From positions 1 to 26,893 of IMG/VR virus record IMGVR_UViG_3300044952_001491: a stretch of 26,893 bases of DNA; one strand, given 5' to 3'. Both the position numbers and the translations under genes were made by a program. Each line of letters begins with the position of its first letter. Within the stretch, counting starts at the first letter, position 1. This document shows positions 5,980 to 25,818 of the stretch, in pieces. This DNA is from a virus. Under the pieces are notes generated by a model, which saw only the letters and a program-made list of their open reading frames with translations, was not told where the DNA came from and did no database searches.

Positions 5980-8900
5980 ATGACTTGGTGGTGGCCGTTT
6001 GGCAAAAAAGAAGAAAGGAAAGAGCAAAAACGGATTTATCAAGGGGCGATTTATAATCGCCTAACTTCTGATTGGCTTGCTTCTTCTACCAGTGCCGATA
6101 GTGAGATAGTTTCCAGCATCCGAACCCTGAGAAATCGGGTTCGCAGTCTTTGTCGTGATAACGATTATGCTAAGGGCGCGGTCAGAACGATTTGTAACAA
6201 CATTGTGGGAAAGGGTATCCCCTTACAAGCCAAGGTTAAGCAAAAACGCGGCGAGAAATACGATGAGCGCATAAATAAAGAAATTGAGGCACTTTGGGAA
6301 GAATGGGGAAGTGCGGAATTTTGCGATTGTGCCGGCAAATTAGATTTTTCTGATATTGAAAGATTGGCGATGCGATCGCTAATAGAGTCGGGGGAAGTAT
6401 TAATCAGATTAGTGCGTAAGAGCTTTGAAGATTCGCCAGTGCCATTAGCTTTGGAGTTGATTGAATCAGATCAATTGGCCGATGATCAATGGTCTGGCAC
6501 GGCGGAAAATGGCAATGAGATCAGGATGGGGGTAGAGATTGATAAGTGGGGCAGACCCGTCGCCTATCACCTTTACGAAAAGCATCCAGGGGATTTTCAG
6601 TTTACCAGTTCGGTAGGACAACGGTTAATTAGGGTTCCAGCCAGCGAAATTATTCACCTGTTTATTTGTGATCGACCAGGGCAGACCCGTGGGGTTCCTT
6701 GGTTCCATAGTGCTTTGACTACTTTTCGGCACGTTGGAGGTTACACCGAGGCTGAGTTGGTGGCAGCCCGGGCGCAGGCTGCGGTGATGGGATTTATCAC
6801 TACGCCGGACACGGATGTTTATGCTCCGGAAGAAATGGCCGGACAGCGAGTGACCAGTTTGGAGCCGGGGGCGATCGAGGTTTTGAATCCAGGAGAGTCT
6901 TTTGAGGGATTTGCCCCCACCCGTCCCAATCAGGGTTTTGATGCTTTTATCAGGATGATGCTGCGGGGGGTGGCGGCGGGGATTGGGCTATCCTATGAGG
7001 CTTTAAGTCGGGATTTCTCTAATACCAGTTACTCCTCGGCCCGAACGTCTTTGATGGATGAGAGGGATAATTATCGGGTGATTCAGTCGTGGTTAATCCG
7101 GCGATTGCACAAAAGAATTTACAAAAAATGGTTAGATTTGGCGGTTTTGTCGGGTTCTTTAAAAATTGGTGATTATGAATTAAACCGGCGATTTTATCAA
7201 AAGGCGAAGTTTACGCCCCGAGGGTGGCAGTGGGTTGACCCACAGAATGAAATTGCTGCCAATAAAGAGGGGGTCAAGGCGGGTTTTGTGTCAATCACGG
7301 ATGTGGTGGCGCAGCAGGGCTTGGATGTGGAGGATGTGCTGCAGGAACAAAAGCGAATTCTTGATCTGGCTAAAGATTTGGGCTTGAGCTTGGATGTACT
7401 GGCAGAAGGGGGTGAGCAGGAGCCTCCCCCTCCGGCAGAGGGGATGACTCCTGTCCGTATCATGCCAGAACAGCAAAGAAGTGAAGATTTTATAGTAGGA
7501 GATTACACCGTAACAAGTTTACTTGAATATCGATCTTTACAGCAAATGGGCGTGGATATCTTTTTTGATATTCTGCCAGGACTGACCCGCACTTTTAGCC
7601 CACGAAAAAGGGCAAAAAATTGTAAAAAAGGCATTGCTCGTGGGGATACCTGTATTGCTAAAAATAGAGTCTGCAAACAAAATTTCCCCCCAGCAGTAGC
7701 CGCGCAAATACCACCAGCTAAAGCGAAAACTAAAAAAAGTGAAGATTTTATAGTAGGAGATTACACGGTGACAAGCATATTTGAATATCGATCTTTACAG
7801 CAAATGGGCGTGGATATCTTTTTTGATATTCTGCCAGGACTGACCCGCACTTTTAGCCCACGAAAAAGGGCAAAAAATTGTAAAAAAGGCATTGCTTGTG
7901 GGGATACCTGTATTGCTAAAAATAGAGTCTGCAAACAAAATTTACCCTCAGCAGTAGCATCGCAAGTACCACCAGCTAAAGCGAAAACTAAAAAAGCGGC
8001 GGGGGGTGCGACGGCTGCCCCAGATGCACCCGCATCAGCCCCCGCACCAGCCCCTGCATCAGCACCAGCACCAGCCCCCGCACCAGCCCCTGCATCAGCA
8101 CCAGCACCAGCACCAGCACCCGCACCCGCACCAGCAGCTGCCGCTACTCCTCAAACAACAGTTTCAAAAGGGGCTGATCCAAATTTACAAAAAACTTTAG
8201 ATACTTACCAAAAAAAAGCAAAGAATTTGCAAAAAGAAGTTGTTCCTGGTTCAAACGAAGAAAGTATACTTAAAGCCTCGGAAGCATCTTGGTCTCAAAT
8301 TAAAAGAGCAAATAAAGCTGGTCAAGATGTAGTCTTTTTGAAAGATGAAAATGGTGACGTAGTGGCGGCTGCTTCTTTAAAGCAAAAAACCGATGCTGGA
8401 ATAACCGCTACTTACATTGATTATGTTGCTGTGCGCCCTGATAATTTACCAATATCATCAAACGATAACATTAAAGTGCCTGGGGCGGGCAAACAATTAC
8501 TAGATCAGATCATTGCAGAGGCTCATTCTCAAGGCAAAGATGTGGCTGTAGACGGATTCAAGTCACCTGGTTTAATTGATTATTTTGAAAATGAGGGATT
8601 TTCTGATTCAGGAAAAGTCAATAAAAAAGACAAGTTGCCAATTTATGTTAATCCCGCCGCACCTGCGTCTGCTGCTTCTGATGCGACATCAACCTCTGAT
8701 CCTGAAAAGCTCAAAACCCCATCACAGAACGCATCATCAAGCGACTCGGCATCGCCAGCATCTCCGACTCCTGAATTTGTGCCTAAAGGCATTTACACTC
8801 AAGCCGAGTATGATTCGCTAGATACGGAGCATAAAAAACGACTTTTTAGAATTGCGGCAGGGTCAGTGGATGATCGCCCTCTAAGCGAACAAAAAAGCGG

Positions 8901-9540
8901 TGATAAACGTTTGTTGTATTTCAATAAAACAAATTCTCAACAAACAAAAGTATCTGCTCTTCTTAAGAGTAATCCAAATTTAACTAAAGCAGAAGCCGAT
9001 GCAGTTGCTCACTGGGTTAACCATGAATATAAAACTGTAAATCAATCAATTTATGCCCCAAACTCTCTTTCGCCTAGAGATAAAATAATAGGCGAAGCGG
9101 GTGCAATCCGAACCAGTCAAGCACTTCGGAAAATGCCGCCAACCACAGATAAAGAAATTAGAAAAATAGCAGAAGAGCGGGGAGAGCCATCAGAATTGGC
9201 TAAAGATAAAAAGCTTCGGAGACACATAAAAAATGTGCCTGATCTTGATGCTTTTTTAGCTCCTTACGAACAGGCGCAAAAATCTGGTAAACCCTATCTT
9301 GAGCCAACGGTTTTTGCTACCACTGCTAAAAAAAATCTTGATTTTTTTGAAGGTGGCGCACAAGCAACTTTTGTGATTAAAGCCAAATTAGACGGAACTG
9401 GATCAGGGCGAACTGTGGATCAGTACAAAAATGAAGCCTGGGAAGGAGAAGTCCTTTACCCCAGTTTTACTGGTTTTAAGGTGAATAAAATTACTAGGCA
9501 ACAAGGAAAACCTGTTATTATAGAAATGGAAGAACTTTAG
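5980..9540 (+). CDS. portal protein fused to duplicated Cys modules, GNAT-like and ADP-ribosyltransferase-like domains
   Basis: Residues 1 to about 490 are a lambda-family portal (RNRVRSLCRDNDYAKGAVRT early; YEALSRDFSNTSYSSARTSL later), the twelve-fold ring through which DNA enters and leaves. Family members are roughly 500 residues; this one is 1186. Two near-identical 86-residue modules follow (501-672), each with a FSPRKRAKNCKKGI...DTC...VCKQN cysteine motif, then a Pro/Ala linker (about 673-725). Residues about 726-900 look like a GNAT acyltransferase (ATYIDYVAVRPD; GAGKQLLDQIIAEA; IDYFENEGF). The final 250 residues resemble an ADP-ribosyltransferase: TVFATTAKK fits the STT strand and EAWEGEVLYP the ExE motif; the catalytic Arg was not assigned with confidence. 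Portal C-termini face the capsid interior, so these domains may be carried with the DNA. No Shine-Dalgarno sequence precedes ATG 5980. Confidence 0.85.
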   Translation: MTWWWPFGKKEERKEQKRIYQGAIYNRLTSDWLASSTSADSEIVSSIRTLRNRVRSLCRDNDYAKGAVRTICNNIVGKGIPLQAKVKQKRGEKYDERINKEIEALWEEWGSAEFCDCAGKLDFSDIERLAMRSLIESGEVLIRLVRKSFEDSPVPLALELIESDQLADDQWSGTAENGNEIRMGVEIDKWGRPVAYHLYEKHPGDFQFTSSVGQRLIRVPASEIIHLFICDRPGQTRGVPWFHSALTTFRHVGGYTEAELVAARAQAAVMGFITTPDTDVYAPEEMAGQRVTSLEPGAIEVLNPGESFEGFAPTRPNQGFDAFIRMMLRGVAAGIGLSYEALSRDFSNTSYSSARTSLMDERDNYRVIQSWLIRRLHKRIYKKWLDLAVLSGSLKIGDYELNRRFYQKAKFTPRGWQWVDPQNEIAANKEGVKAGFVSITDVVAQQGLDVEDVLQEQKRILDLAKDLGLSLDVLAEGGEQEPPPPAEGMTPVRIMPEQQRSEDFIVGDYTVTSLLEYRSLQQMGVDIFFDILPGLTRTFSPRKRAKNCKKGIARGDTCIAKNRVCKQNFPPAVAAQIPPAKAKTKKSEDFIVGDYTVTSIFEYRSLQQMGVDIFFDILPGLTRTFSPRKRAKNCKKGIACGDTCIAKNRVCKQNLPSAVASQVPPAKAKTKKAAGGATAAPDAPASAPAPAPASAPAPAPAPAPASAPAPAPAPAPAPAAAATPQTTVSKGADPNLQKTLDTYQKKAKNLQKEVVPGSNEESILKASEASWSQIKRANKAGQDVVFLKDENGDVVAAASLKQKTDAGITATYIDYVAVRPDNLPISSNDNIKVPGAGKQLLDQIIAEAHSQGKDVAVDGFKSPGLIDYFENEGFSDSGKVNKKDKLPIYVNPAAPASAASDATSTSDPEKLKTPSQNASSSDSASPASPTPEFVPKGIYTQAEYDSLDTEHKKRLFRIAAGSVDDRPLSEQKSGDKRLLYFNKTNSQQTKVSALLKSNPNLTKAEADAVAHWVNHEYKTVNQSIYAPNSLSPRDKIIGEAGAIRTSQALRKMPPTTDKEIRKIAEERGEPSELAKDKKLRRHIKNVPDLDAFLAPYEQAQKSGKPYLEPTVFATTAKKNLDFFEGGAQATFVIKAKLDGTGSGRTVDQYKNEAWEGEVLYPSFTGFKVNKITRQQGKPVIIEMEEL
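7480..7995 (+). repeat. 258-bp tandem duplication inside the portal fusion gene
   Basis: Copy 1 (7480-7737) and copy 2 (7738-7995) run in frame with a period of exactly 258 bp, or 86 codons, and are almost identical, so the duplication is recent. One difference changes a cysteine codon: copy 1 reads GCTCGTGGGG (Ala-Arg-Gly) where copy 2 reads GCTTGTGGGG (Ala-Cys-Gly). Confidence 0.95.
8014..8145 (+). repeat. Pro/Ala linker minisatellite
   Basis: In-frame degenerate GCACCAGC repeats, partly organised in 36-bp higher-order units, encode a run of alternating Ala and Pro with some Ser. This is a typical extended flexible linker separating the Cys modules from the GNAT-like domain. Such tracts change length easily. 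Confidence 0.85.
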
Positions 9541-9549
9541 GGAAAAAAT

Positions 9550-9843
9550 ATGGATCCACGCTTAGAAAAATCGGTTAAGAGCTTGTTTAGAGGATTAGTT
9601 GCTGGGGATGGCGATGTTTATTCGCGGATGGCTTCGAGTCATGAGGGAGCTACCGCGCCTTATCCTGAGCCTTTAGCGGGAATTGTCAATGCTATTAAAG
9701 CAGATTTTGATCGGGGCAAATTTTCCAATTTAGCAACGCGGGATGATTATGCAGAAGCAATAGTCCCTTATTTTGAAAGCTTTGTTTTGTTATATAATCC
9801 TAATGATTTTGAGTTAAAAGAGGATGAAGCTGAAGATGAATGA
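9550..9843 (+). CDS. hypothetical 97-residue acidic protein next to the portal fusion
   Basis: No family is recognised. The product is acidic, especially at the C-terminus (LKEDEAEDE), with probable helices around LEKSVKSLFRGLVAG and YAEAIVPYFESFVLLY. ATG 9550 lies 9 nt after the portal stop, with AGGGAA upstream. It overlaps the next small gene by 8 nt. It sits directly after the predicted ADP-ribosyltransferase-like domain and could protect the producing cell from it. That reading rests only on position and charge; a head accessory protein is equally possible. Confidence 0.65.
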   Translation: MDPRLEKSVKSLFRGLVAGDGDVYSRMASSHEGATAPYPEPLAGIVNAIKADFDRGKFSNLATRDDYAEAIVPYFESFVLLYNPNDFELKEDEAEDE

Positions 9844-10036
9844 AGCACAGCAAGCCGTATTACCTATAATTGAATCGGTTTACACCGATGGAGTCGATGC
9901 TATTGGTGAGCCGTCTTTATCTGATGATGAAAGATTTATCATTGTTCAGTTTCAAGATGGGGAAAAGCTATTAGAAGCTAAAATTAGTGATACGGATATT
10001 GAGATTAAAATGCTTAATCCTGAACAATCGGATTGA
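9836..10036 (+). CDS. hypothetical 66-residue acidic protein
   Basis: No family is recognised. The sequence alternates helix (EAQQAVLPIIESVYTDG) and short strands (FIIVQFQDGEKLLEAKISD) and is acidic. ATG 9836 overlaps the previous stop by 8 nt; an in-frame ATG at 9824 would add four residues but has AGAGG touching it. The pair of small acidic genes between portal and capsid is where lambda-like phages often keep accessory or decoration genes. Confidence 0.55.
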   Translation: MNEAQQAVLPIIESVYTDGVDAIGEPSLSDDERFIIVQFQDGEKLLEAKISDTDIEIKMLNPEQSD

Positions 10037-10069: not shown

Positions 10070-11884
10070 TTGCCCGTGAGAACTATAGAAATTCCTAAAT
10101 CGCTAACCCGTTCATCCTATTTGTTACCGCTGTCGCTTCGCGAGCGTTCCCCCTTTGAGGAAACGGGTGATAATACTATTTTTAGTTTTTCCTCTGAGTA
10201 CCCAGTAGATCGGGGGTGGGGGGTGGAGATTTTAGATCACGCTCTCAGTTCGGTAGATTTGTCACGAATGGCCACGGCCAATTTGCTGCTAAATCACGAT
10301 CGCTCGATTATTTTGGGAGCGATCGAACGGGTTTGGATTGATTCAGTTCAAAAAAAGGGTTACTGCAAAATCCGTTGGTCAAATCGTTCGGAGGTGCAAG
10401 GCTATAAAGAGGACGTAGCTAACGGCATTATCAGAAACGTCTCTTTTGGGTACAACGTCTTGAAAACAGTACCTTTAAACGACAAAGGTAGTTATCGGGT
10501 AACTAAATGGCAACCCTTCGAGGTGTCGTTAGTATCCGTTCCCGCTGATTATACGGTGGGTTTTGGCCGCGCTAAAGGGTTTGAGGGTACGATTTCTTTA
10601 AATGTTGAGAGTTGCAATATGGACAGAGAATTGGAAAAAGAAAGAATTTTGGGAATTCAGGAATTGGTGAGAAGCTATGGATTCCCAGAATTGGGGCAAC
10701 GAGCGATCGAAGAAGATATGGATATCGAAGACGCTCGATCGCTTTATCTAGCTCGTTTGGGTGAGCAAATGAATCCAGTGGCGGGCGCTGTCAATCCTTT
10801 GGGTTTATCGACAAAAGAGGGTAAATCTTATTCGATTTTGCGGGCGATAAATGCTTGTCTTACCAACGATTGGACTAAAGCTGGTTTTGAGCGAGAATGT
10901 TCTAGAGAAATCGCCAAGCGAGCCGGGAAAGAAACGTCGGGTTTTTTCCTGCCAGTGCGAGATGTCAGAATGGAAAGCTACCGCGCCACATACCAAGTTG
11001 GCACGGCTGCCACTGGCGGCAACACTGTCGAAACCAGTTTAATGGCGGAAAATTTTATTGATGTTTTGCGAAACAAATTGGTGATTCGATCGCTTGGTGC
11101 TACTGTGATGAGCGGGTTGCAAGGAAACGTGGACATTCCGGGGCAAGATGCCATTACCCAGACTTACTGGGTAGGGGAGAGCGGAGCAATCACTCAGTCT
11201 GAGGCAACTTTTCGTCAAGTGCCTTTGCGCCCCAGAACGATCGCCGCTCGGTCTCAAATGTCTCGATTAATGTTGTTGCAAAGTTCCATTGACATTGAAC
11301 AGTTTGTTAGGAACGATTTTGCGGCGGTTATGGCGCGGGGAATTGATCAAGCGGCTATTCGAGGCACGGGAACAAATGGGGAACCAAGGGGAATTTTAAA
11401 TTTAACTGGCATTGGTACGGTGGCACTAGGAACTAATGGAGGTGCGCCAACTTATTCCAGCATCATCGCTCTGATGCGCGAACTAGAAATAGATAATGCT
11501 GATATGGGGGCGCTTAGTTGGCTAACCAATCCTCTTGTTAAGAGCCGGCTGATGCTGACTCCTAAGCAAGCCTCTGGGGTAGAGGGTAATTTTATTTTGT
11601 CTGACCCTGGCCGATCCTTAATGGGTTATCAGTTTGCTTGCACTAATGCCGTACCGAGTAATCTAACTAAAGGAACTGGGACAAATCTTTCCCCTTTAAT
11701 CTTTGGCAATTTTAACGATCTAATAATTGGAGAATGGGGATCAGTGGAAATATTGGTCAATCCCTACGGGGCGGGTTATAACACTGGGGATGTTGATATC
11801 CGAGTCATGCAAACCATTGACGTTGCTTTCCGGCAAGTGGTTTCGTTTGCAGCAATTACTGATATGATCACTACTTTACCTTAG
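10070..11884 (+). CDS. fused prohead protease and HK97-type major capsid protein
   Basis: The N-terminal domain (about residues 1-185) is an HK97-type U35 serine protease, with H76 in LLLNHDRS, S125 in IIRNVSFGYN and the EVSLVSVPADYTVG strand. After a helical segment (about 200-250) comes the HK97-fold capsid protein (about 285-604): FFLPVRD, QGNVDIPGQDAITQTYWVGE, GIDQAAIRGTGTNGEPRGIL, and the C-terminal DVAFRQVVSFAAITDM. The protease should cut itself and the scaffold-like linker away during maturation. Such fusions exist in other phages. The start codon is TTG 10070 or GTG 10076, neither with a strong ribosome-binding site. Confidence 0.93.
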   Translation: MPVRTIEIPKSLTRSSYLLPLSLRERSPFEETGDNTIFSFSSEYPVDRGWGVEILDHALSSVDLSRMATANLLLNHDRSIILGAIERVWIDSVQKKGYCKIRWSNRSEVQGYKEDVANGIIRNVSFGYNVLKTVPLNDKGSYRVTKWQPFEVSLVSVPADYTVGFGRAKGFEGTISLNVESCNMDRELEKERILGIQELVRSYGFPELGQRAIEEDMDIEDARSLYLARLGEQMNPVAGAVNPLGLSTKEGKSYSILRAINACLTNDWTKAGFERECSREIAKRAGKETSGFFLPVRDVRMESYRATYQVGTAATGGNTVETSLMAENFIDVLRNKLVIRSLGATVMSGLQGNVDIPGQDAITQTYWVGESGAITQSEATFRQVPLRPRTIAARSQMSRLMLLQSSIDIEQFVRNDFAAVMARGIDQAAIRGTGTNGEPRGILNLTGIGTVALGTNGGAPTYSSIIALMRELEIDNADMGALSWLTNPLVKSRLMLTPKQASGVEGNFILSDPGRSLMGYQFACTNAVPSNLTKGTGTNLSPLIFGNFNDLIIGEWGSVEILVNPYGAGYNTGDVDIRVMQTIDVAFRQVVSFAAITDMITTLP

Positions 11885-15528: not shown

Positions 15529-15662
15529 AATTATTTTTGGATGCGGCTAATTATCTGGAAGCTGAGGAAAGAAAAGCTAATATTGTTGATAGAGCTTTAA
15601 GTTTTAGAGGCGACAATCAAAATATCAAAAAAGCGATTAAAGATTTATCTACTGATGACTGA
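15375..15662 (+). CDS. -1 frame extension (gpT-like part of a gpGT fusion)
   Basis: The -1 frame relative to the chaperone gene is open from 15375 to a TGA at 15660-15662. From about 15450 it encodes WAIQITRLLCAGHRLSDIGE, then YSKAQIKLFLDAANYLEAEE and a charged helix, like the C-terminal T domains of other siphophage GT proteins. No start codon with a ribosome-binding site serves it alone, so it should be made by -1 slippage from the gpG-like gene. The last codons and stop fall in the first two units of the heptamer array. Confidence 0.65.
   Translation, partial: DKFRFFYSEVDRGSRKNSGKTSNEGWAIQITRLLCAGHRLSDIGEYSKAQIKLFLDAANYLEAEERKANIVDRALSFRGDNQNIKKAIKDLSTDD
15387..15393 (+). other. candidate -1 frameshift slippery site
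   Basis: Seven T residues read T TTT TTT in the zero frame (GAT TTT TTT ATT), an exact X-XXY-YYZ heptamer. An A6 run at 15419-15424 (GAA AAA ATA) is a second candidate closer to where the -1 frame starts to look coding. No pseudoknot was assessed. Confidence 0.4.
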
Positions 15663-15825
15663 TGACTGATAACTGATAACTGATAACTGATAACTGATGA
15701 CTGATAACTGATAACTGATAACTGATGACTGATAACTGATAACTGATAACTGATAACTGATAACTGATGACTGATAACTGATAACTGATAACTGATAACT
15801 GATAACTGATAACTGATAACTGATA
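15651..15825 (+). repeat. ACTGATA heptamer array, 25 units
   Basis: Exactly 25 consecutive 7-bp units, 20 ACTGATA and 5 ACTGATG, fill the space from the end of the gpT-like frame to the base before the tape measure ATG. On the other strand the units read TATCAGT, the repeat behind the LSVISYQ peptides annotated in many cyanobacteria. The array holds no Shine-Dalgarno sequence. Stops occur in all plus frames. Confidence 0.97.
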
Positions 15826-18800
15826 ATGGCAACTCGCACTTTAGGGATTAAGTACACTTCTGAGGGATTGGCGGCAGTAACGGGCGCTTTGCAGAAGGTT
15901 TCCTTCGCTTTTGATGAGGCATTATCAAAAGCACAGGATACGGTAGAGGAAGCGATTAAGGCCTCTCAAGAGGCTCTAAAAGCTAACGATGCAGATGCTT
16001 TTGCCGAAGCGGAAAAGAAGAAGGCTTTAGCCGCAAAACAGACGGCTAATTTAGTCAAAAATGCCTATCGAGAATTGGGGGTGCAAGCCGAGGCGGATAT
16101 TAAATCGCTTAAAGAGCAGGCAGTTTCGGCATTTGAGGCGATTAAAAATAGCGGGGTGGCCAGCGCTCGGGATATTGCTGATGCTCAAAAGCAGTTAGAC
16201 CGACGACTAGAGCAGTTAAACGCCCAGCTTAAGGACAGTTCCAATCGTTGGGAACGTGTCACCGAGTCGATTAGCGGTGCTAAGTTAGCCTTATCTTCTT
16301 TTGTGGGGAATCTTGCCGCTAATACGGTTACGGGGGCTTTTAACTCGATAACTGGTTCGATCACGGGTTTTTTTAGGGGATTATCAGCCGCAATTCAAAG
16401 AGCGGGGATTCAGACCGAAAATCTCAAGGCTCAATTAAAAACGATCGAAGGGAGTGCGGATGCGGCGGAGGCTGCTTACGCTAAAATCGCCAAATTTGCC
16501 CAAACCACGCCCTACGAACTGGAACAGGTGACGCAGGCTTATGTTTCGCTGGCTAACCGGGGAATGAAACCTACGGAGGAACAATTGCAAGCAATTGGCG
16601 ATATGGCTGCAAGCCAACAAAAGCCACTGCAGCAGTATGTAGAGGCGATTCTGGACGCAATGACCGGGGAAAATGAACGCCTAAAAGAATTTGGGATTAA
16701 GGCGGCTAAATCAGGGGATCAGGTTAGTTTTACCTTTCGTGGGGTGACTAAAACCGTACAGGCAACGGAAAAATCAATATTAGACACATTGCTATCTCTA
16801 TCTAAAATGGATGGGGTGATGGGGGGAATGAATGAACGGGCTAAAACTACTGAGGGCAAATTATCAAACTTAACGGATGCTTTACAGGCAGTTTATGTAA
16901 AGCTTTTTAACGCTATCCTGCCGGCTCAACAGGCGCTAATTGAGTCGTCCACTGGTATCATCGCTCCCTTGGCTAAACAAGAAGATTTATATAAAGCAAT
17001 TGGCGATCGAGCTAAAGAATTATCGGATTATTTAAAAGCCAATCCCGAAATAATTGAAGAAATTCGCAGGCAATTACAAGAGGGGATGCTGCTGGTATTT
17101 AATTCAGTTTCGGCGACGGCCAAACAAATTCTTGATTATTTAAAAGCCAACCCAACTGCGATCGAGGATGCGATCAAAGCAATGGGGACTTTGCTGAATA
17201 TTACCAAAGAGTTGTTAAGTGTATTGGGATTTGTTTTAAAAGGGTATCAAGCAATTGCGGATACTGTTCGGGTTATTAATCAAGAAATGCCAACCAATAA
17301 ATTGATTGGTCCGGCTGACGTGGCACAGCGAATTAAATCGGCTGGAGGGAGCGATGCTGATGTACAAAGAGTTTTAAAAAGAATACAAGAAGAAACGAGC
17401 GATTTGAGCATAGTGGACACCATAATGGGCGTTAACACAGATAAAATACAAGCTGTGGTAATGCGAATTTTAGAGGAAGAACTAAAGCGATTAAAACCCG
17501 ATTATGATTATGGTCCATTGACCAGGGGAGCTTCCTTAAAACCTTTACCCGTTCCTGCCCCCCCACCCAGTAGATCGGGCGCGTCACTCCCACCACCACC
17601 ACCTTCTAGTTCAATTACTTCACTGCGACCATCTTCTAGTTCAACTACATCTGGGTATGCAAAAGGATTTGAGCGCCTATCGGATTTAGAAGTGTTTCTA
17701 AACAGTAATCCTCTTTTTGCCAATAATCCCACGGCACGGGCTGTGGCGCTTGCAATTGCGGCAGGAGAAGTTGGGTCTGCGTGGCTCAAAGAGACCTCTA
17801 ATATAAATCTTTTTCGTGGCAGAGGTGGCACGGGTAACGCTATGCAGGGATTCGCTCAATTCAATACTCGCTATTTTAAAAATATTGACAATCCAGTTAA
17901 TTATCTTGATCTTTTGGCAAAAATGCTTACTGGACAATCTACTTTGCCCACGGGACAAGGTAGATTAAATATTAAGGAATTAGAAAATTTAATTGCTGGT
18001 GGTCAGATTTCAACTCCGCAGCAGTTCTTGGCTTACCTACAAAAAGCGATGCCAATCGCTAATTGGGAGGGTTTGTTCGGACCGGGCGGGCAAAGAGTAT
18101 TGCAAAGTCGCGTTTTAGATGTGCAGTTAAATCGCTTGGCTAATAATATTCCGAATAATCAGATTAGAAATTTTGAAGAGGAAAAAAATAGAGCGCAAAG
18201 TAGAGCGCAAAGTGTTGACCAACTGGCAAGAGATGTTGCAAAATTAACACAATTAATGGGAGGCAAAGTTTCTAAGATTGCTTTACCCCAAAACCTATTT
18301 GGTGAAATTACCCCACCGACTGAGTTTATGGGAATGCGACTTGGTAGCTCCACTGTTGGGGTTGGTATTCCTTCAGTAAATCTTGACCTTTTCTTGGCAA
18401 CTTTGACTAAAAATCAAGAGGCAATAGAAGCCGCTACGGAAGCTTTAAAATTAGGAATAGAAAGATTTGCTACAGCAACGCTGCCCAGTTTTAGTGAAAT
18501 CACACCACCGCCTGAATTTGAGGGGTTTTCTTTTGGCAGTTCCACTGTTGGGGTTGATGCCCCAGTAACATACCCTGATCGCATGATTGAAATGGCCGAA
18601 AATGCTCGGTTAGCCATGGAGCGGTTAAATGCCATGGTGGCTGTATTCGCCGAGACTGGAACGGTGGGAGTAGAAAAATTGGCCACGGGGTTTGAGAATC
18701 TGGGAAAAACAGTTACCGACGTAGCCCAGAATGCTTTTGGTCGGTTTTTCCAAGACGTGCTAACCGGGCAAAGATCCGTGGGCGACGCTCTACTCGATCT

Positions 18801-20596: not shown

Positions 20597-20694
20597 CAGT
20601 AAAATTGTAAATTAAAAGCGTGAGTGTAAGAAAGTTGATAAATTCTATTTCCGTAGCATTTAGGACAATGTTTGCCAGTGGGTTTATCTGCCAT
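20536..20694 (-). CDS. 52-residue zinc-ribbon protein, antisense to tail genes
   Basis: On the minus strand ATG 20694 opens 52 codons ending in TGA at 20536-20538. Residues 9-39 contain HCPKC and, 19 residues later, YCHDCKKAFVW: a complete four-cysteine zinc ribbon similar to those in transposase N-termini and small regulators. It spans the 96-bp gap between NlpC/P60 and the next gene and runs into the NlpC/P60 3' end. Its ATG overlaps the plus-strand ATG 20693 (CATG). No Shine-Dalgarno sequence is visible. Four correctly spaced cysteines in 52 codons are unlikely by chance, but expression is unproven. Confidence 0.5.
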   Translation of the reverse strand: MADKPTGKHCPKCYGNRIYQLSYTHAFNLQFYCHDCKKAFVWYRSFDLKAKP

Positions 20695-22333
20695 GTTTAG
20701 TGAAGAAAGATTGGATTTAGGATACGATTATGGCACGGTGGCGACGATTACCACCAAAACCTCTATTATTGAATCTAAAAACGGCAAGGAACAAAGAACG
20801 CCACAATGGTATCAGCCATTGCTTCAATTTAATATTGGAAAAAGATCAGAAATTAACAATCAACTAGATCAACTTATTGCTTTTTTTCAGGCGCGTAAAG
20901 GTGCTTATGAAGGTTTCCGATTTAAAGATTGGAGTGACTATCAGTTTAGCACAATAATTACTCTAAATGCTAATAAACAAGCCCAGTTATTTAAGGCTTA
21001 TTCTGTAGCAGGATTCACGGTCAAGCGGCCTTTGATCAAAATTGTACCCGAATCAATTCTGGTTTCGGTGGGGAATTCCCCAGTGACGACGGGATGGACT
21101 GTAGATTTTAACACTGGCATAATTACCTTTGATCAAATCCAGACAGAGTTAATCCAAGTGTCAGGAGAATTTGATGTACCCGTGCGATTTGCTACTGATG
21201 AAATCAATTTGAGATTTGAAGCTTTTGAGGCTTGCGAGCCAGAATCAAACCTTAAGCTTTTTAGTTTGGAAAATTTAAATTTAACCGAAATACGAATCAA
21301 TCCAACGCTTGCTCTATCTCTTGATCAGATACCCCAATCTCTTGATCATCAGATTAATTTGGGATACGATTACGGCACAATTGGCGGCGTTGAGTTTGCT
21401 ACTAAAATTAATCAATTAGTATCAGGCCAGGAGCAAAAAATCAGCGACTGGACTACCAATCGGGGAAATTGGGAGGTGGGGGCGCGAACCCTGATCAAAT
21501 CTGATTTAGATTATTTAATTAGTCTATTTCGGGTGTGCCGGGGAAAAGCAGTTGGGTTTGAGTATTTTGATTGGGGAACTGAAAGCCAAATAAATGTTAG
21601 GTTTGGCGAAGACGCGATCGCTTTTCGGTTTGATGCTTACGAGCAAGGTACGGGTCGAGTAATTTTTAATCTTGCGGGCGTGCCGTTGGTGGGATTCGTC
21701 AACAATGTTTTCATCGGATTAACCTCTGGCACAGGGTTAGCTGGAATTGATCCCACCGGATCGCGTCACCGAATTTTAGAGTTTACTTTCAATGGTCAAA
21801 ATCTGTTTGGAAATTTGCAGATTAACGGTAACGCTTCGATGGTGGCGGGCAATATCCTTCAGTTAACTCCCGCCGCTAACAGTCAAGCGGGTTCGGCTTT
21901 TTGGAAAAGCGCGTTAAGTTCAGCAAGGATTAATCAGGATTGGTCGGTATTTTTTGTTTACGAAATTATCGAAAATTCGCGCTATGACGGGATAACGTTT
22001 TTAATTACCTCAAGCGGACCCAAATCCCTTGCGGGGGGCGGGGCGATCGGTTATTTTGGGATTAAATCGATGGTTGCTGTCGAATTTGATACTTTCAAAA
22101 ATAATGAATACGGAGATCCCAACAACAACCACATTGCCATAACGACGGACGGGGAAGGTTTTGCCCCTATTATTCTAGCCACTCAAAGCTCACCAGGTCT
22201 TGATTTGGTGGGACAACGGTGGGTGTGGATCGATTATGTTAATTCGCAGTTGCGGGTGTTTATTGCCAGTAGCAATAGCAAACCGAGTTCGCCGATTTTA
22301 ACCCATTCCGTGGTGCTTTCTAGCTTGCTTTAG
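20693..22333 (+). CDS. distal tail protein (DUF2460-like, duplicated) with C-terminal legume-type lectin
   Basis: Residues 1 to about 205 match the DUF2460 distal tail family (RLDLGYDYGTVATITTKTSI, FFQARKGAYEGFRFKDWSDY). A second, diverged half-copy starts near residue 219 (INLGYDYGTIGGVEFATKIN) and runs to about 345. The rest is an L-type lectin: AVEFDTFKNNEYGDPNNNHI aligns with concanavalin A with all acidic, Asn and His metal ligands kept (E, D, N, D, H at the same spacing). It probably binds host surface glycans. It ends at WVWIDY...SVVLSSLL, earlier than most L-type lectins. ATG 20693 fits the family start; TTG 20672 with AGGA 6 nt upstream would add seven residues. Confidence 0.85.
   Translation: MFSEERLDLGYDYGTVATITTKTSIIESKNGKEQRTPQWYQPLLQFNIGKRSEINNQLDQLIAFFQARKGAYEGFRFKDWSDYQFSTIITLNANKQAQLFKAYSVAGFTVKRPLIKIVPESILVSVGNSPVTTGWTVDFNTGIITFDQIQTELIQVSGEFDVPVRFATDEINLRFEAFEACEPESNLKLFSLENLNLTEIRINPTLALSLDQIPQSLDHQINLGYDYGTIGGVEFATKINQLVSGQEQKISDWTTNRGNWEVGARTLIKSDLDYLISLFRVCRGKAVGFEYFDWGTESQINVRFGEDAIAFRFDAYEQGTGRVIFNLAGVPLVGFVNNVFIGLTSGTGLAGIDPTGSRHRILEFTFNGQNLFGNLQINGNASMVAGNILQLTPAANSQAGSAFWKSALSSARINQDWSVFFVYEIIENSRYDGITFLITSSGPKSLAGGGAIGYFGIKSMVAVEFDTFKNNEYGDPNNNHIAITTDGEGFAPIILATQSSPGLDLVGQRWVWIDYVNSQLRVFIASSNSKPSSPILTHSVVLSSLL
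21065..21087 (+). repeat. 23-bp inverted repeat, left copy (with GGGGAATTCCCC)
   Basis: It is identical over 23 bp to the reverse complement of 26234-26256. It contains TGGGGAATTCCCCA at 21069-21082. It lies inside the distal tail gene and encodes SVGNSPVT in frame. It and its partner enclose the lectin end of this gene and the whole minus-strand tail-tip gene. Confidence 0.9.
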
Positions 22334-25300
22334 TATAAAAACCTAAAATTGCCATTATTCCAAAGATAATCATCTTCAGCATTAGTAGTTAGTCTATTCC
22401 AGCGATAAATATATTGAAGTCGTCCTTGAAATGTAAAATTGTCAAAAACCAAATTTTCGTTTCTTCTCGCTCCGATATAAAAGTGAATATTAAAAGGACT
22501 AGGGGGAGAAGCGGAAAAGGTTTCAGTAGAACTTAAAACATTGTTTAGTTTGCCTGTTACTGTTAAATTATTAGCGTTGTATTTGCTTATAAATAAATAC
22601 CAAGTGTTCAATTGAATGTTGTTGTCAAAATTTAAATTCTGTCCTGATCGCATATATTCATAATAAAGAACTAATCTTTCTGGATTAGTTACCCTCAAAA
22701 TTAGTTGATTAGCTTCCCTTCTTGCAAAGTATTCGTCTTTTGCTAACACAAAATCAGCAGTAAAATCAGTAAAAGATGCGGGAGTTCTGTATAGATAAGC
22801 TATGGTGTGGGTTCTGCGAAAATCTCCTTTTTCGTCGGTTCCGTTAGGATAAAATAAATTGTTAAAGATGTTCATCCCAGACAAAGCTAAACTGTCTAAA
22901 ATTCCACCACTGGTTAAACTAGGATTGCCGTTTTGAGAAAGCAGATTGCTGTTAGTTTTAACATCTTTCCTGACATTATTGCCGCTTCTAAATTCAAATC
23001 CCCAAATTAAATCATTTTTCAAAACATTTAAAATTGGGTCTTCGTTACTACCAGTCAGGAACTTGGTAATATGTAAAGTTAATCCCACGTCGGTAGCTGA
23101 ACTACTAGCAACATTGAATCTCACTTGCGCGCCTTGAGTGACAAAATTATTGGCTGTGGCAGCACTAATAACTAAGCTGGTGGAAACAGCTAAATTAGAT
23201 AATCCGCTTACGGGCGCTCCGTTGATTTCTAAAGCGCCGTTGGCATTTCCCGTGGTGCTTTGTAAAGCAATCCTGTCAATTCGATAGGAAAAAGGCGCAG
23301 CAACGTCAAGAAAATAAGGTTTTGCGTTTAAATTATCAAAATGGCGGGTAATTAAATCACCATCAGCAGATTGTAATAATTCAGGAATGATGACGGTGAT
23401 ATCCGTCCGGTTTTCAGTCGGATTATCTACCGCCGTCACCGCATCCCCGATAAAGTTAAGGGTCTGCCGGCTGCTAACTGCGGTTCCTTCTTCTTGCACT
23501 GTTAAGGCAACTACGGTGATATCTGTCCGGTTTTCAGTCGGATTATCTACCGCCGTCACCGCACCCCCGATAAAGTTAAGGGTTTGACGACTGCTGACCG
23601 CGATTCCTTCTTCCTGTACCGTTAGGGTCGAGGGTTGCACGATCGTGAAATCGATCGCACTTTCCCCGACACCCAATGGAGCGGTAACTCTGATTTTGCC
23701 AGTAGTCGTTCCAACGGCAACGACGGCGGTGATTGTAGTGTCGCTGACCACGGTAAAACTTTGAGCGGCAATCTCATTAAAACTGACGGCCGTAGCTCCG
23801 GTAAAACCCATCCCGGAGATTGTCACCGTGACTCCGATCGCTCCCTGCCGAGGAGAAAAATCGTCAATGCTTACTTGAAAAGCTTTCCCCTGAAAAACTA
23901 AAATCACGGGGGCTACATCGGCTAGGGTCTGGCCAGGGGACACAGCTTTAAAGTAAAAAGTTTTGCCAATATCAGATCGTTGGGCGGGCAGATTAAGTTT
24001 ATAGCCTGAAAGCAGGTAAAACGTCTCGTTAGCGGCGTGGGTTTGGGGAGTGTTGTTTATCCCACGGGTAAAAGGTGCGCTTAACTCAAAAATCTTGTCG
24101 GTTCCTTGATTCCCCGTCAAAGTTGCGTTTTGAAAGTCAACAATTTCAGCGCCAATGAGCGATCGATTTCTACCTTCTAAAAACAAAGCCTCGGAAATTG
24201 AAGCAAGGGAAGCGTGAAAGGGAACGCGCACGCTGACGGTAGTGCCATTAAAAATCGTCTGACAGGTTCCAAGAATAGATCTAGTCACAAAAGTATCAAC
24301 AAAATTGTAGGTGACACCCAAATCTGTAGAAATGTACAAATTAGCATTTCTCCAGTTGGCATCGCCATCAGCGAACGCATACAGTCCAGGTGTATCTGTG
24401 GAATAGGCCAAAGGGATATCCAGTACCCGCAAAATAGTAGGAGAAACGGTAAAGAGCGGGGTGTTAGTGGGGGGTGGGGGTGTGGGGTCGGGAATTGGGG
24501 AAGGCTCAAAATCCGGCTCGTCAACTAAAGTCTGATCCCACCCGTAAACGGCTGAGTTGTAAGTCCAGGTTTTAGCCAAAACTAGATAATTAGCCCCAAT
24601 TTCTATCTGGGTAATTTGTACCTGCTTTTGTCTGCCAGCGATTTCTAGCGCAAAAATGTCCCCTGGTTCAAAGTAAGAATATTTAGGGGGCAAAGATAAG
24701 GTTTGAGTTTTTGATCGCGTCCAGGCAATCCAGAGAAGCTTATTCGCAATATTTTTGGCATCGGATTCGCTCAAAACTCCGGGATAATCGATCGTCACCC
24801 TATTAATGTGAGTAGCCGTAGGGAAAGATACCGAGCGGGCGATGCCCTCTAAAAGATTATTGTTTTTATCAAAATATTTGATCTCAATTTGAGTGGGAAG
24901 ATCAGTTAGTTCGCGGGCTTCCTCTTGGTAAGAATTGGGGCGCTCGCCATCTTCCTCAAAAGCTCCTAGTTCTGAGTCCATTAAAAAAGTCCCAGTTGAT
25001 CTAAACTGATTTTGAAATTTTAAAACTAAGCCGTTATCGACTAAATCAAAAAAGTGGATATTTTGCAGTTGAGTCAATTGTTCTGCGATCGTAGACTGAT
25101 TGTCTATTTGATAGCCGTCAATGAGTATATTGTCCAGTTCGCTAGTATCCAAATCGGATTCTAATAAAAAGGGAGATTCTAAGCAAAGATCATTAATCAC
25201 ATCAGCAAGGGAAGGATCGCCATTGCGGACTAAGGCCGAGCATTGAGGATAAGCATTACCAAATTCAGCTAAGGGTAAGTCCTCACAGACTAAAATCGTT

Positions 25301-25818
25301 CGATGCCGGTAAGGGATTGCTAAATTATTAAGCTTGACTTGTAGAAGTGAGTCAATCTGTTGATTGTCATCTCCGTGATAAATCCTGAAAGTACAGCCAG
25401 AACTTTCTAGAATTGGCTGTACCTGTCCGTTTTTCCAGACAAGCTTGCTATTAAATCGGATTTCATTAACCTGAGTAGTTTTTCCACACAAAAGATAGGC
25501 ACAACTACCCCAATAGGTATAAGTGCGCTCTGTAGTAACGGTTGTCGTTCCTCCGCCACCTTTGCCACCCTGATTTTGTCTGGTGACGGATTCTGAGACT
25601 CTTTCCTCTGGGGGAAAATCAGCGTAAAGAAGAATTCCCCCCACCCGACCCTGTCCCCAGACTTTTGAAATAGAATCGCCCTCGGAAGCTCTAGGCCGGG
25701 TAAAATTATCTTGCTTATTGCGCTCAACTTTATTGCGGATTACCCGGCTGGGAGCAAATAAAGCAGATAGAGCGCTTGCTCCTAAACTTACGGCTGCCCC
25801 GATCAAAACATTGGTCAT
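22330..25818 (-). CDS. gpJ-like tail tip / host specificity protein with TIG and LamG-like domains
   Basis: The 1162-residue protein starts with a hydrophobic segment (4-22) and motifs of GTA-type host specificity proteins (FTRPRASEGDSISKVWGQGR; RTYTYWGSCAYLLCG). A Pro-rich linker lies near 433-455. A TIG/IPT domain spans about 653-727 (QGAIGVTVTISGMGFTGATA), followed by two 40-residue beta repeats (729-808, AVSSRQTLNFIG...AVDNPTENRTDI). The last 230 residues resemble a LamG/concanavalin-like fold (TWYLFISKYNANNLTVTGKL). It is the only large structural gene on the minus strand; its stop overlaps the convergent distal tail gene stop. A terminator abuts the start codon and no Shine-Dalgarno sequence is present. 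Confidence 0.85.
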   Translation of the reverse strand: MTNVLIGAAVSLGASALSALFAPSRVIRNKVERNKQDNFTRPRASEGDSISKVWGQGRVGGILLYADFPPEERVSESVTRQNQGGKGGGGTTTVTTERTYTYWGSCAYLLCGKTTQVNEIRFNSKLVWKNGQVQPILESSGCTFRIYHGDDNQQIDSLLQVKLNNLAIPYRHRTILVCEDLPLAEFGNAYPQCSALVRNGDPSLADVINDLCLESPFLLESDLDTSELDNILIDGYQIDNQSTIAEQLTQLQNIHFFDLVDNGLVLKFQNQFRSTGTFLMDSELGAFEEDGERPNSYQEEARELTDLPTQIEIKYFDKNNNLLEGIARSVSFPTATHINRVTIDYPGVLSESDAKNIANKLLWIAWTRSKTQTLSLPPKYSYFEPGDIFALEIAGRQKQVQITQIEIGANYLVLAKTWTYNSAVYGWDQTLVDEPDFEPSPIPDPTPPPPTNTPLFTVSPTILRVLDIPLAYSTDTPGLYAFADGDANWRNANLYISTDLGVTYNFVDTFVTRSILGTCQTIFNGTTVSVRVPFHASLASISEALFLEGRNRSLIGAEIVDFQNATLTGNQGTDKIFELSAPFTRGINNTPQTHAANETFYLLSGYKLNLPAQRSDIGKTFYFKAVSPGQTLADVAPVILVFQGKAFQVSIDDFSPRQGAIGVTVTISGMGFTGATAVSFNEIAAQSFTVVSDTTITAVVAVGTTTGKIRVTAPLGVGESAIDFTIVQPSTLTVQEEGIAVSSRQTLNFIGGAVTAVDNPTENRTDITVVALTVQEEGTAVSSRQTLNFIGDAVTAVDNPTENRTDITVIIPELLQSADGDLITRHFDNLNAKPYFLDVAAPFSYRIDRIALQSTTGNANGALEINGAPVSGLSNLAVSTSLVISAATANNFVTQGAQVRFNVASSSATDVGLTLHITKFLTGSNEDPILNVLKNDLIWGFEFRSGNNVRKDVKTNSNLLSQNGNPSLTSGGILDSLALSGMNIFNNLFYPNGTDEKGDFRRTHTIAYLYRTPASFTDFTADFVLAKDEYFARREANQLILRVTNPERLVLYYEYMRSGQNLNFDNNIQLNTWYLFISKYNANNLTVTGKLNNVLSSTETFSASPPSPFNIHFYIGARRNENLVFDNFTFQGRLQYIYRWNRLTTNAEDDYLWNNGNFRFLY
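23393..23632 (-). repeat. 120-bp tandem repeat in the tail tip gene
   Basis: Two in-frame copies with a 120-bp period encode paired 40-residue beta repeats of a type common in tail fibres (VQEEG...SRQTLNFIG...NRTDITV). The copies are about 85-90% identical at DNA level, so the duplication is fairly recent or kept by gene conversion. Confidence 0.9.

Follow-up and report, generated by a model that had tools for sequence, protein, structure and literature searches.

Exchangeable cassettes of enzyme-like domains on the portal protein of probable cyanophages

Introduction

Why should the protein that forms the gate of a phage capsid run on, in the same reading frame, into domains that resemble enzymes? 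The question is raised by an open reading frame (ORF) at positions 5980-9540, plus strand, of the virus record IMGVR_UViG_3300044952_001491, of which a stretch of 26,893 nucleotides was analysed (hereafter the window). Its product, a single frame of 1186 residues free of internal stops upon translation, comprises in this order a lambda-type portal, two cysteine (Cys) modules, a Pro/Ala linker, a GNAT-like domain and an ADP-ribosyltransferase (ART)-like domain. As we describe below, this fusion is found in further assemblies, its C-terminal domains are exchanged between close relatives, small ORFs are linked to particular effectors, and a common leader precedes them. Since nearly identical viruses carry different enzyme-like domains at this place, the capsid gate probably also serves to carry proteins that are delivered into the host.

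Results

Residues 1-487 (5980-7440) constitute a lambda-family portal core, with PF05136 (Phage_portal_2) matching residues 26-369 above its cut-off (E = 3.7e-114) and the portal family phrog_21 extending to residue 483 (E = 1.2e-114). A short junction (7441-7474, delimited by blastn breakpoints) leads into a 258-bp direct repeat, whose copies (7475-7732 and 7733-7990) are 95% identical and each encode one leader module. The Cys motif of the second copy (7879-7932), CKKGIACGDTCIAKNRVC, is intact and reads C-x2-G-x2-C-G-x2-C-I-x5-C; that of the first (7621-7674), CKKGIARGDTCIAKNRVC, has lost one of four cysteines to arginine. There follow a Pro/Ala linker built of 12-bp repeat units (8001-8154), the GNAT-like domain (residues 726-891; 8155-8652), a second low-complexity linker (8653-8781) and the ART-like domain (residues 935-1186; 8782-9537), all on the plus strand. 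GC at third codon positions is 0.49 in the portal but only 0.24-0.30 across the Cys, GNAT and ART regions, which points to a different history of the C-terminal part.

The original prediction, made from the sequence of this stretch, had the portal continue in frame through two Cys modules and a Pro/Ala linker into the C-terminal domains, and named a stop or frameshift in between among the things that would overturn it. The translation agrees with that architecture, and a frameshift or misassembly hiding a stop was rejected in view of the same fusion in other assemblies. Two loci from two other metagenomes, L010 and L011 (L numbers denote loci), encode portal, Cys, GNAT and ART in one frame of 1071 residues, with one Cys module each and the same ART as the window (90% identity), and L008 and L002, both records from a single metagenome, cover the two halves of the window's gene with 99.96% identity. 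Besides, the two other plus-strand frames are full of stops outside a short linker, whereas the fusion frame has none. Together, these observations make a hidden stop or frameshift unlikely.

Scanning viral contigs with the portal core yielded 80 loci, and portals 97-99% identical to that of the window turned out to carry different C-terminal cassettes: Cys-GNAT-ART in L010 and L011, Cys-GNAT-DUF3626-ART-PolyVal in L017 (ART-PolyVal above its cut-off, E = 8.3e-8), and Cys-ParB-like in L009, L013, L014 and L015. Portals at 61-65% identity bear either Cys-ParB-like (L022, L023, L025-L027) or Cys-HExxH (L020, L126). Below about 50%, the frames inspected are devoid of such an extension, L028 and L029 having another short tail; the portals of L088 and of Synechococcus phage S-LBS1 carry no cassette extension. 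Judged from these alignments, the C-terminal region of the portal is a swappable cassette, and the locus combines a conserved N-terminal part with exchangeable C-terminal effectors in the manner of polymorphic toxins.

The same effectors also exist as separate genes, namely GNAT-ART behind a ParB-like gene in L005 and L006, and Cys-DUF3626-ART-PolyVal behind portal-ParB in L014. In blastn comparisons, the window matches L013, L014 and L015 up to position 7471 and from there on the leader belonging to the standalone effector gene that lies downstream (position 8807 in L014). Given this breakpoint, the window's portal looks as if it had been joined to the next effector of the array, with the ParB cassette removed. 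The ParB-like cassette of L014 matches phrog_21 at positions 1011-1330 (E = 3e-62), and the HExxH and ART cassettes match PHROGs annotated as 'minor head protein'. No Pfam match was obtained for the HExxH proteins, whose description as 'zincin-like' rests on the HExxH motif and their PHROG neighbours.

Small ORFs accompany particular effectors. According to a presence matrix and an IMG/VR search, orf97 (9550-9843, plus strand) occurs only next to this ART: its relatives were found in six IMG/VR records, all with this ART, of which L007 retains only the last residues of the ART, where the contig begins. Likewise, orf182 (182 residues) was found in two IMG/VR records, both with ART-PolyVal, and orf105 (105 residues) only with HExxH effectors, which it follows in every record reaching that far, including L126. 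The pairs ART-orf97 (window) and ART-PolyVal-orf182 (L017) replace each other as units between GNAT and orf70, and L010 and L011 differ by HExxH-orf105 as a unit; the ParB-like cassette has no partner small gene. Close relatives account for many of these records, which amount to few independent events, the HExxH-orf105 pairs spanning at least four diverged lineages, and the matrix rows for DUF3626-ART-PolyVal denote only the presence of DNA in L014 and L017, with the domain call taken from the ART-PolyVal profile match. As effector-specific small ORFs sit downstream and swap together with their effectors, the arrangement resembles that of toxin and immunity genes, and orf97 is a candidate immunity gene for the ART.

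The core gene orf70 (9824-10036, plus strand; 70 residues) was rejected for that role, being present with every cassette. Omega amounted to 0.02 for orf70 and 0.05 for the portal (against both L010 and L014), compared with 0.27-0.46 for GNAT and 0.33-1.1 for ART. Within the orf105 family (L005 6612-6926 and homologues), we observed a strongly conserved C-terminal tail of the NFPP-GA-S type. In the HExxH frames of L005 (5239-6612) and L011 (9706-11079), the Cys module lies ahead of the first ATG, GTG or TTG and overlaps the end of an orf70-type ORF in another frame, which may reflect a frameshift or an unusual start.

As regards the individual domains, the proposed GNAT-like fold was supported. 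For its structure model (pLDDT 63.5), 50 out of 50 among the Foldseek matches listed were GNAT or the related Fem fold (best E = 9e-4, probability up to 1.00, TM only 0.3-0.4), and VIA matches reached a Z of 7.2. The Pfam models Acetyltransf_1 and Acetyltransf_10 scored E values of about 0.01 in hmmscan, and a single-family search with Acetyltransf_1 gave 7.9e-4 for the window, the homologous domain of L017 reaching 6.0e-6, in each case under the curated cut-off; a search for a sequence relative in the PDB returned none. By the model and these profiles, residues 726-891 have a GNAT fold, with catalysis as a prediction. The acetyl-CoA loop of GNATs reads R/Q-x-x-G-x-G/A. The RVLGAG of L017 fits this pattern, and the KVPGAG of the window (a GxGK-type loop, PGAGK, at residue 834) and the DKPGAG of L010 are without the R/Q.

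For the C-terminal domain, the ADPrib_exo_Tox model reached 21.7 bits against a cut-off of 23.4 (best E = 1.4e-4; 9.1e-5 in a single-family search) and matched four of four homologues. The NCBIfam model XopAI hit the C-terminal ExE region (E = 2.9e-4), in which E1155-G-E1157 is invariant in four homologues. Searches for this ART returned no PDB sequence relative, nothing in phages and plasmids, and two weak, marginal matches in 386 cyanobacterial genomes. Of the two checks that had been suggested for residues 935-1186, hidden Markov models thus gave sub-threshold agreement, and the structure model (pLDDT 44) was too low in confidence for its fold to be read. The domain is probably ART-like, and its enzyme activity is predicted.

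The leader extends beyond the window lineage, in which the Cys module precedes each effector. With K, C, G, CG, CI and C invariant in 11 sequences, the module was found in 50 viral loci, where it elsewhere precedes kinase domains (S-CBWM1, L145), HExxH proteins, lipase-like proteins and, in L158, an ART-like 'minor head protein' match. Two to several Cys-module genes lie close together in L145, L158 and S-CBWM1. Among the scanned proteins, no match in Pfam, PHROG or NCBIfam convincingly covered the module. Ahead of the Cys module, gp019 of Nodularia phage kac65 and L135 have a domain homologous to the orf70 family (hhalign probability 95.8%, E = 6.8e-9). Besides, the same leader with a DUF3626 effector adjoins unrelated Mu-type portals in kac65 and in one cyanobacterial genome, G283, where the portal carries a fused InPase domain and the next protein, of 881 residues, comprises an orf70-kind N-terminal domain, a Cys module and DUF3626. 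At E <= 1e-4, only 3 of the 386 cyanobacterial genomes contain the module, which therefore looks phage-borne within this phylum.

In L129-L140 (isolate genomes or prophage regions), the Cys module directly follows signal-peptide-like starts, a hint that it forms disulfides or binds metal outside the cytoplasm. L143, L145 and L158 are large phage contigs with clustered Cys-module proteins, some of them with kinase domains, and the kinase gene of L143 is the same as in Synechococcus phage S-CBWM1.

The portal ORF lies between a large terminase gene upstream and, downstream, a gene in which an S78 prohead protease (PF04586, E = 4.6e-8) is fused to an HK97-type major capsid protein (PF05065, E = 5.5e-41; 10070-11884, plus strand). 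The host is likely a cyanobacterium, given that the best portal relatives with a known host are those of Synechococcus phages S-LBS1, S-CBS3 and S-CBS1 (44-46%), that the nearest genome match comes from a metagenome-assembled genome of the Acaryochloridaceae (63%), and that a repeat at about 15651-15826 is 85-98% identical to a multi-copy repeat dispersed in many cyanobacterial genomes. Among long DNA matches sought as a guide to the host, strong ones were confined to this repeat and to low-complexity sequence, with short, weak matches in genomes that have related portals. The repeat resembles a miniature inverted-repeat transposable element inside a phage record and occupies the intergenic space directly before the tape-measure gene. 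Further downstream, a DUF2460 tail protein (20672-22333) ends in a legume-lectin-type domain that makes up its C-terminal third (PF00139, E = 8.7e-21), and a large tail protein (22330-25818; Phage-tail_3, Rcc01698_C) related to those of gene-transfer agents is encoded on the minus strand, opposite to the remaining structural genes.

Discussion

Head-packaged effectors have precedents. T4 Alt and the P1 Dar proteins are internal head proteins delivered together with the DNA; they are separate proteins, whereas the domains described here extend the portal. The analogy to Alt, which had been drawn at the outset, is supported; the domains themselves are known from published polyvalent and head-delivered proteins. 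Polyvalent proteins of phages and conjugative elements are thought to be packaged and injected; their GNATs typically adjoin ARTs, they include DdrB-like ParB and metallopeptidase domains as well as, among the simple architectures, MuF and portal fusions, and their paucity in cyanobacteria has been noted (Iyer et al. 2017, PMC5512222). The present proteins resemble them in combining ART, GNAT, ParB and metallopeptidase domains and in the fusion to a portal, and differ by the exchange of cassettes on near-identical portals with linked small ORFs and by the Cys leader, which the part of that article available to us does not mention.

MuF polymorphic toxins (PMC5576092) and Bxa, a MuF-ART with two immunity proteins (PMC11699363), likewise possess a head-associated N-terminal part, a variable toxin domain (ART among them) and a small ORF directly downstream. 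Here, however, it is the portal itself, or a protein with the Cys leader, that acts as carrier, and immunity has candidate status. Pfam and PHROG scans of the 1186-residue protein gave no match to a MuF domain, which sets it outside the MuF family. Phage ARTs fused to head or portal proteins have been mentioned, too (PMC9503650), and the accessible part of that text describes no GNAT-ART pair combined with a Cys leader on a lambda-type portal. Since effector fusions to portals, including ARTs, have been published (PMC5512222, PMC9503650, as far as available), and phrog_21 itself spans the ParB-like region, this kind of system is already known, and the combination of portal and ART is less unusual than the original prediction proposed. 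What appears to be new are the polymorphic effectors on the portal in probable cyanophages, as opposed to the published portal-effector and portal-ART fusions and MuF toxins. Beyond what had been predicted, the present work adds the swappable cassette, the occurrence of the same effectors as separate downstream genes and the effector-linked small ORFs. In the open-access papers searched, we found no description of near-identical portals that exchange cassettes together with linked genes, of the Cys/orf70 leader, or of either in probable cyanophages; the coverage of this literature makes the absence weak evidence.

We consider it rather probable that the extension is a polymorphic effector cassette on the portal, which would be packaged with the DNA and delivered at infection, the ART and possibly the GNAT acting on host targets, orf97 protecting the producer cell, and the gene itself having been formed by recombination. 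Packaging, cleavage, injection, enzymatic activity and immunity are what we infer. Portal C-termini make up a crown or barrel at the capsid-facing end (PMC12810830, PMC10575957), and the cassette should accordingly lie inside the capsid lumen. There, the Cys leader and the variable effector (here GNAT and ART) would be held on the inner side of the portal ring and packaged, to enter the host at infection after release by the prohead protease, perhaps the S78 enzyme encoded at 10070-11884, or else as a processed minor species. Once inside, the ART, perhaps along with the GNAT, may modify proteins or further targets to the phage's advantage, in the way of T4 Alt or P1 Dar, or might alternatively serve as a MuF-type toxin, and orf97 would protect producer cells against the ART. 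As for the origin of the window's gene, recombination may have joined the portal to the downstream standalone effector of the same array and deleted the ParB cassette seen in close relatives.

It is also possible, and here we are more tentative, that cyanophages share a leader for head-effector delivery (an orf70-like domain plus the Cys4 module) which, next to portals of unrelated types, carries a broad set of mutually unrelated effectors (ART, DUF3626, ParB-like, HExxH, kinase, alpha/beta hydrolase), several of which have a small partner gene of their own. Within the window lineage, this leader would have been fused to the portal repeatedly, turning the ring into a twelve-copy effector carrier.

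Several points weigh against the delivery of an active portal cassette. R-S-E class ADP-ribosyltransferases usually have an STS motif and a catalytic arginine. The predicted ART-like C-terminus is supported by two independent sub-threshold ART models and the EGE motif (EGEVLYP from residue 1155), but FATT (from residue 1112), cited as a hallmark, takes the place of STS and no catalytic arginine can be assigned. The GNAT and ART matches lie below curated cut-offs, the ART of L006 (3351-4049) has lost 19 residues in frame, including the LRRHI region, and for one pair the omega of ART is as high as 1.1. Nor is the extension attached in every case: in L005, as in L012 (1925-1979), a frameshift right after the portal core leaves a portal of 504 residues and a detached ParB-like cassette. 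A protease site for release of the cassette was not identified. By our own estimate, twelve portals would have to tolerate about 0.9 MDa of extra protein, a load that seems bearable at about 1% of the volume of a lambda-sized capsid.

What else could the cassette be? It might act in the producing or lysogenic cell, as a prophage toxin-immunity or superinfection-exclusion device for which the strongly expressed portal gene provides promoter and carrier. We deem this unlikely: while the effector-linked small ORFs suggest a need for protection in the producer cell, the relative S-LBS1 has an integrase (PMC6157547) and MuF toxins are linked to temperate phages (PMC5576092), the effectors belong to the late head operon and form part of a ring protein. 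Moreover, the ParB-like domain also occurs in large late proteins of P-SCSP1 and MedDCM phages, by gene order between tail and fibre genes, presumably where ejected internal proteins lie. Somewhat less probable again is a structural role, as a packaged tether or an aid in assembly with enzyme-like folds that are no longer catalytic, to which the imperfect ART motifs, the deletion in L006 and the variable residue of the GNAT loop (K, D or R before xxGxG) would conform; a structural part, however, would not swap between unrelated folds on portals 97-99% identical, nor bring its own small ORF, and the portals of S-LBS1 and L088 are without it. Least probable of the three is a decaying recombination remnant, that is, a deletion derivative in which a former standalone effector was fused to the portal by accident, since the breakpoint at 7471, the tandem duplication, the lost cysteine, the absent HExxH gene and the shift in third-position GC are set against a frame open over about 700 residues in several metagenomes, a GNAT omega of 0.27-0.46 and fusions that arose repeatedly with different effectors (portal-ParB; portal-HExxH in L020 and L126).

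Read as a polymorphic effector cassette, the locus offers a natural experiment, in that nearly identical phages are distinguished by a single effector domain together with a single small gene. Thereby, the function of head-delivered phage toxins and the possible immunity role of downstream ORFs become directly testable. The shared leader suggests itself as a mark for recognising such effectors, and polyvalent and polymorphic effectors are extended to probable cyanophages, where they have been reported to be scarce.

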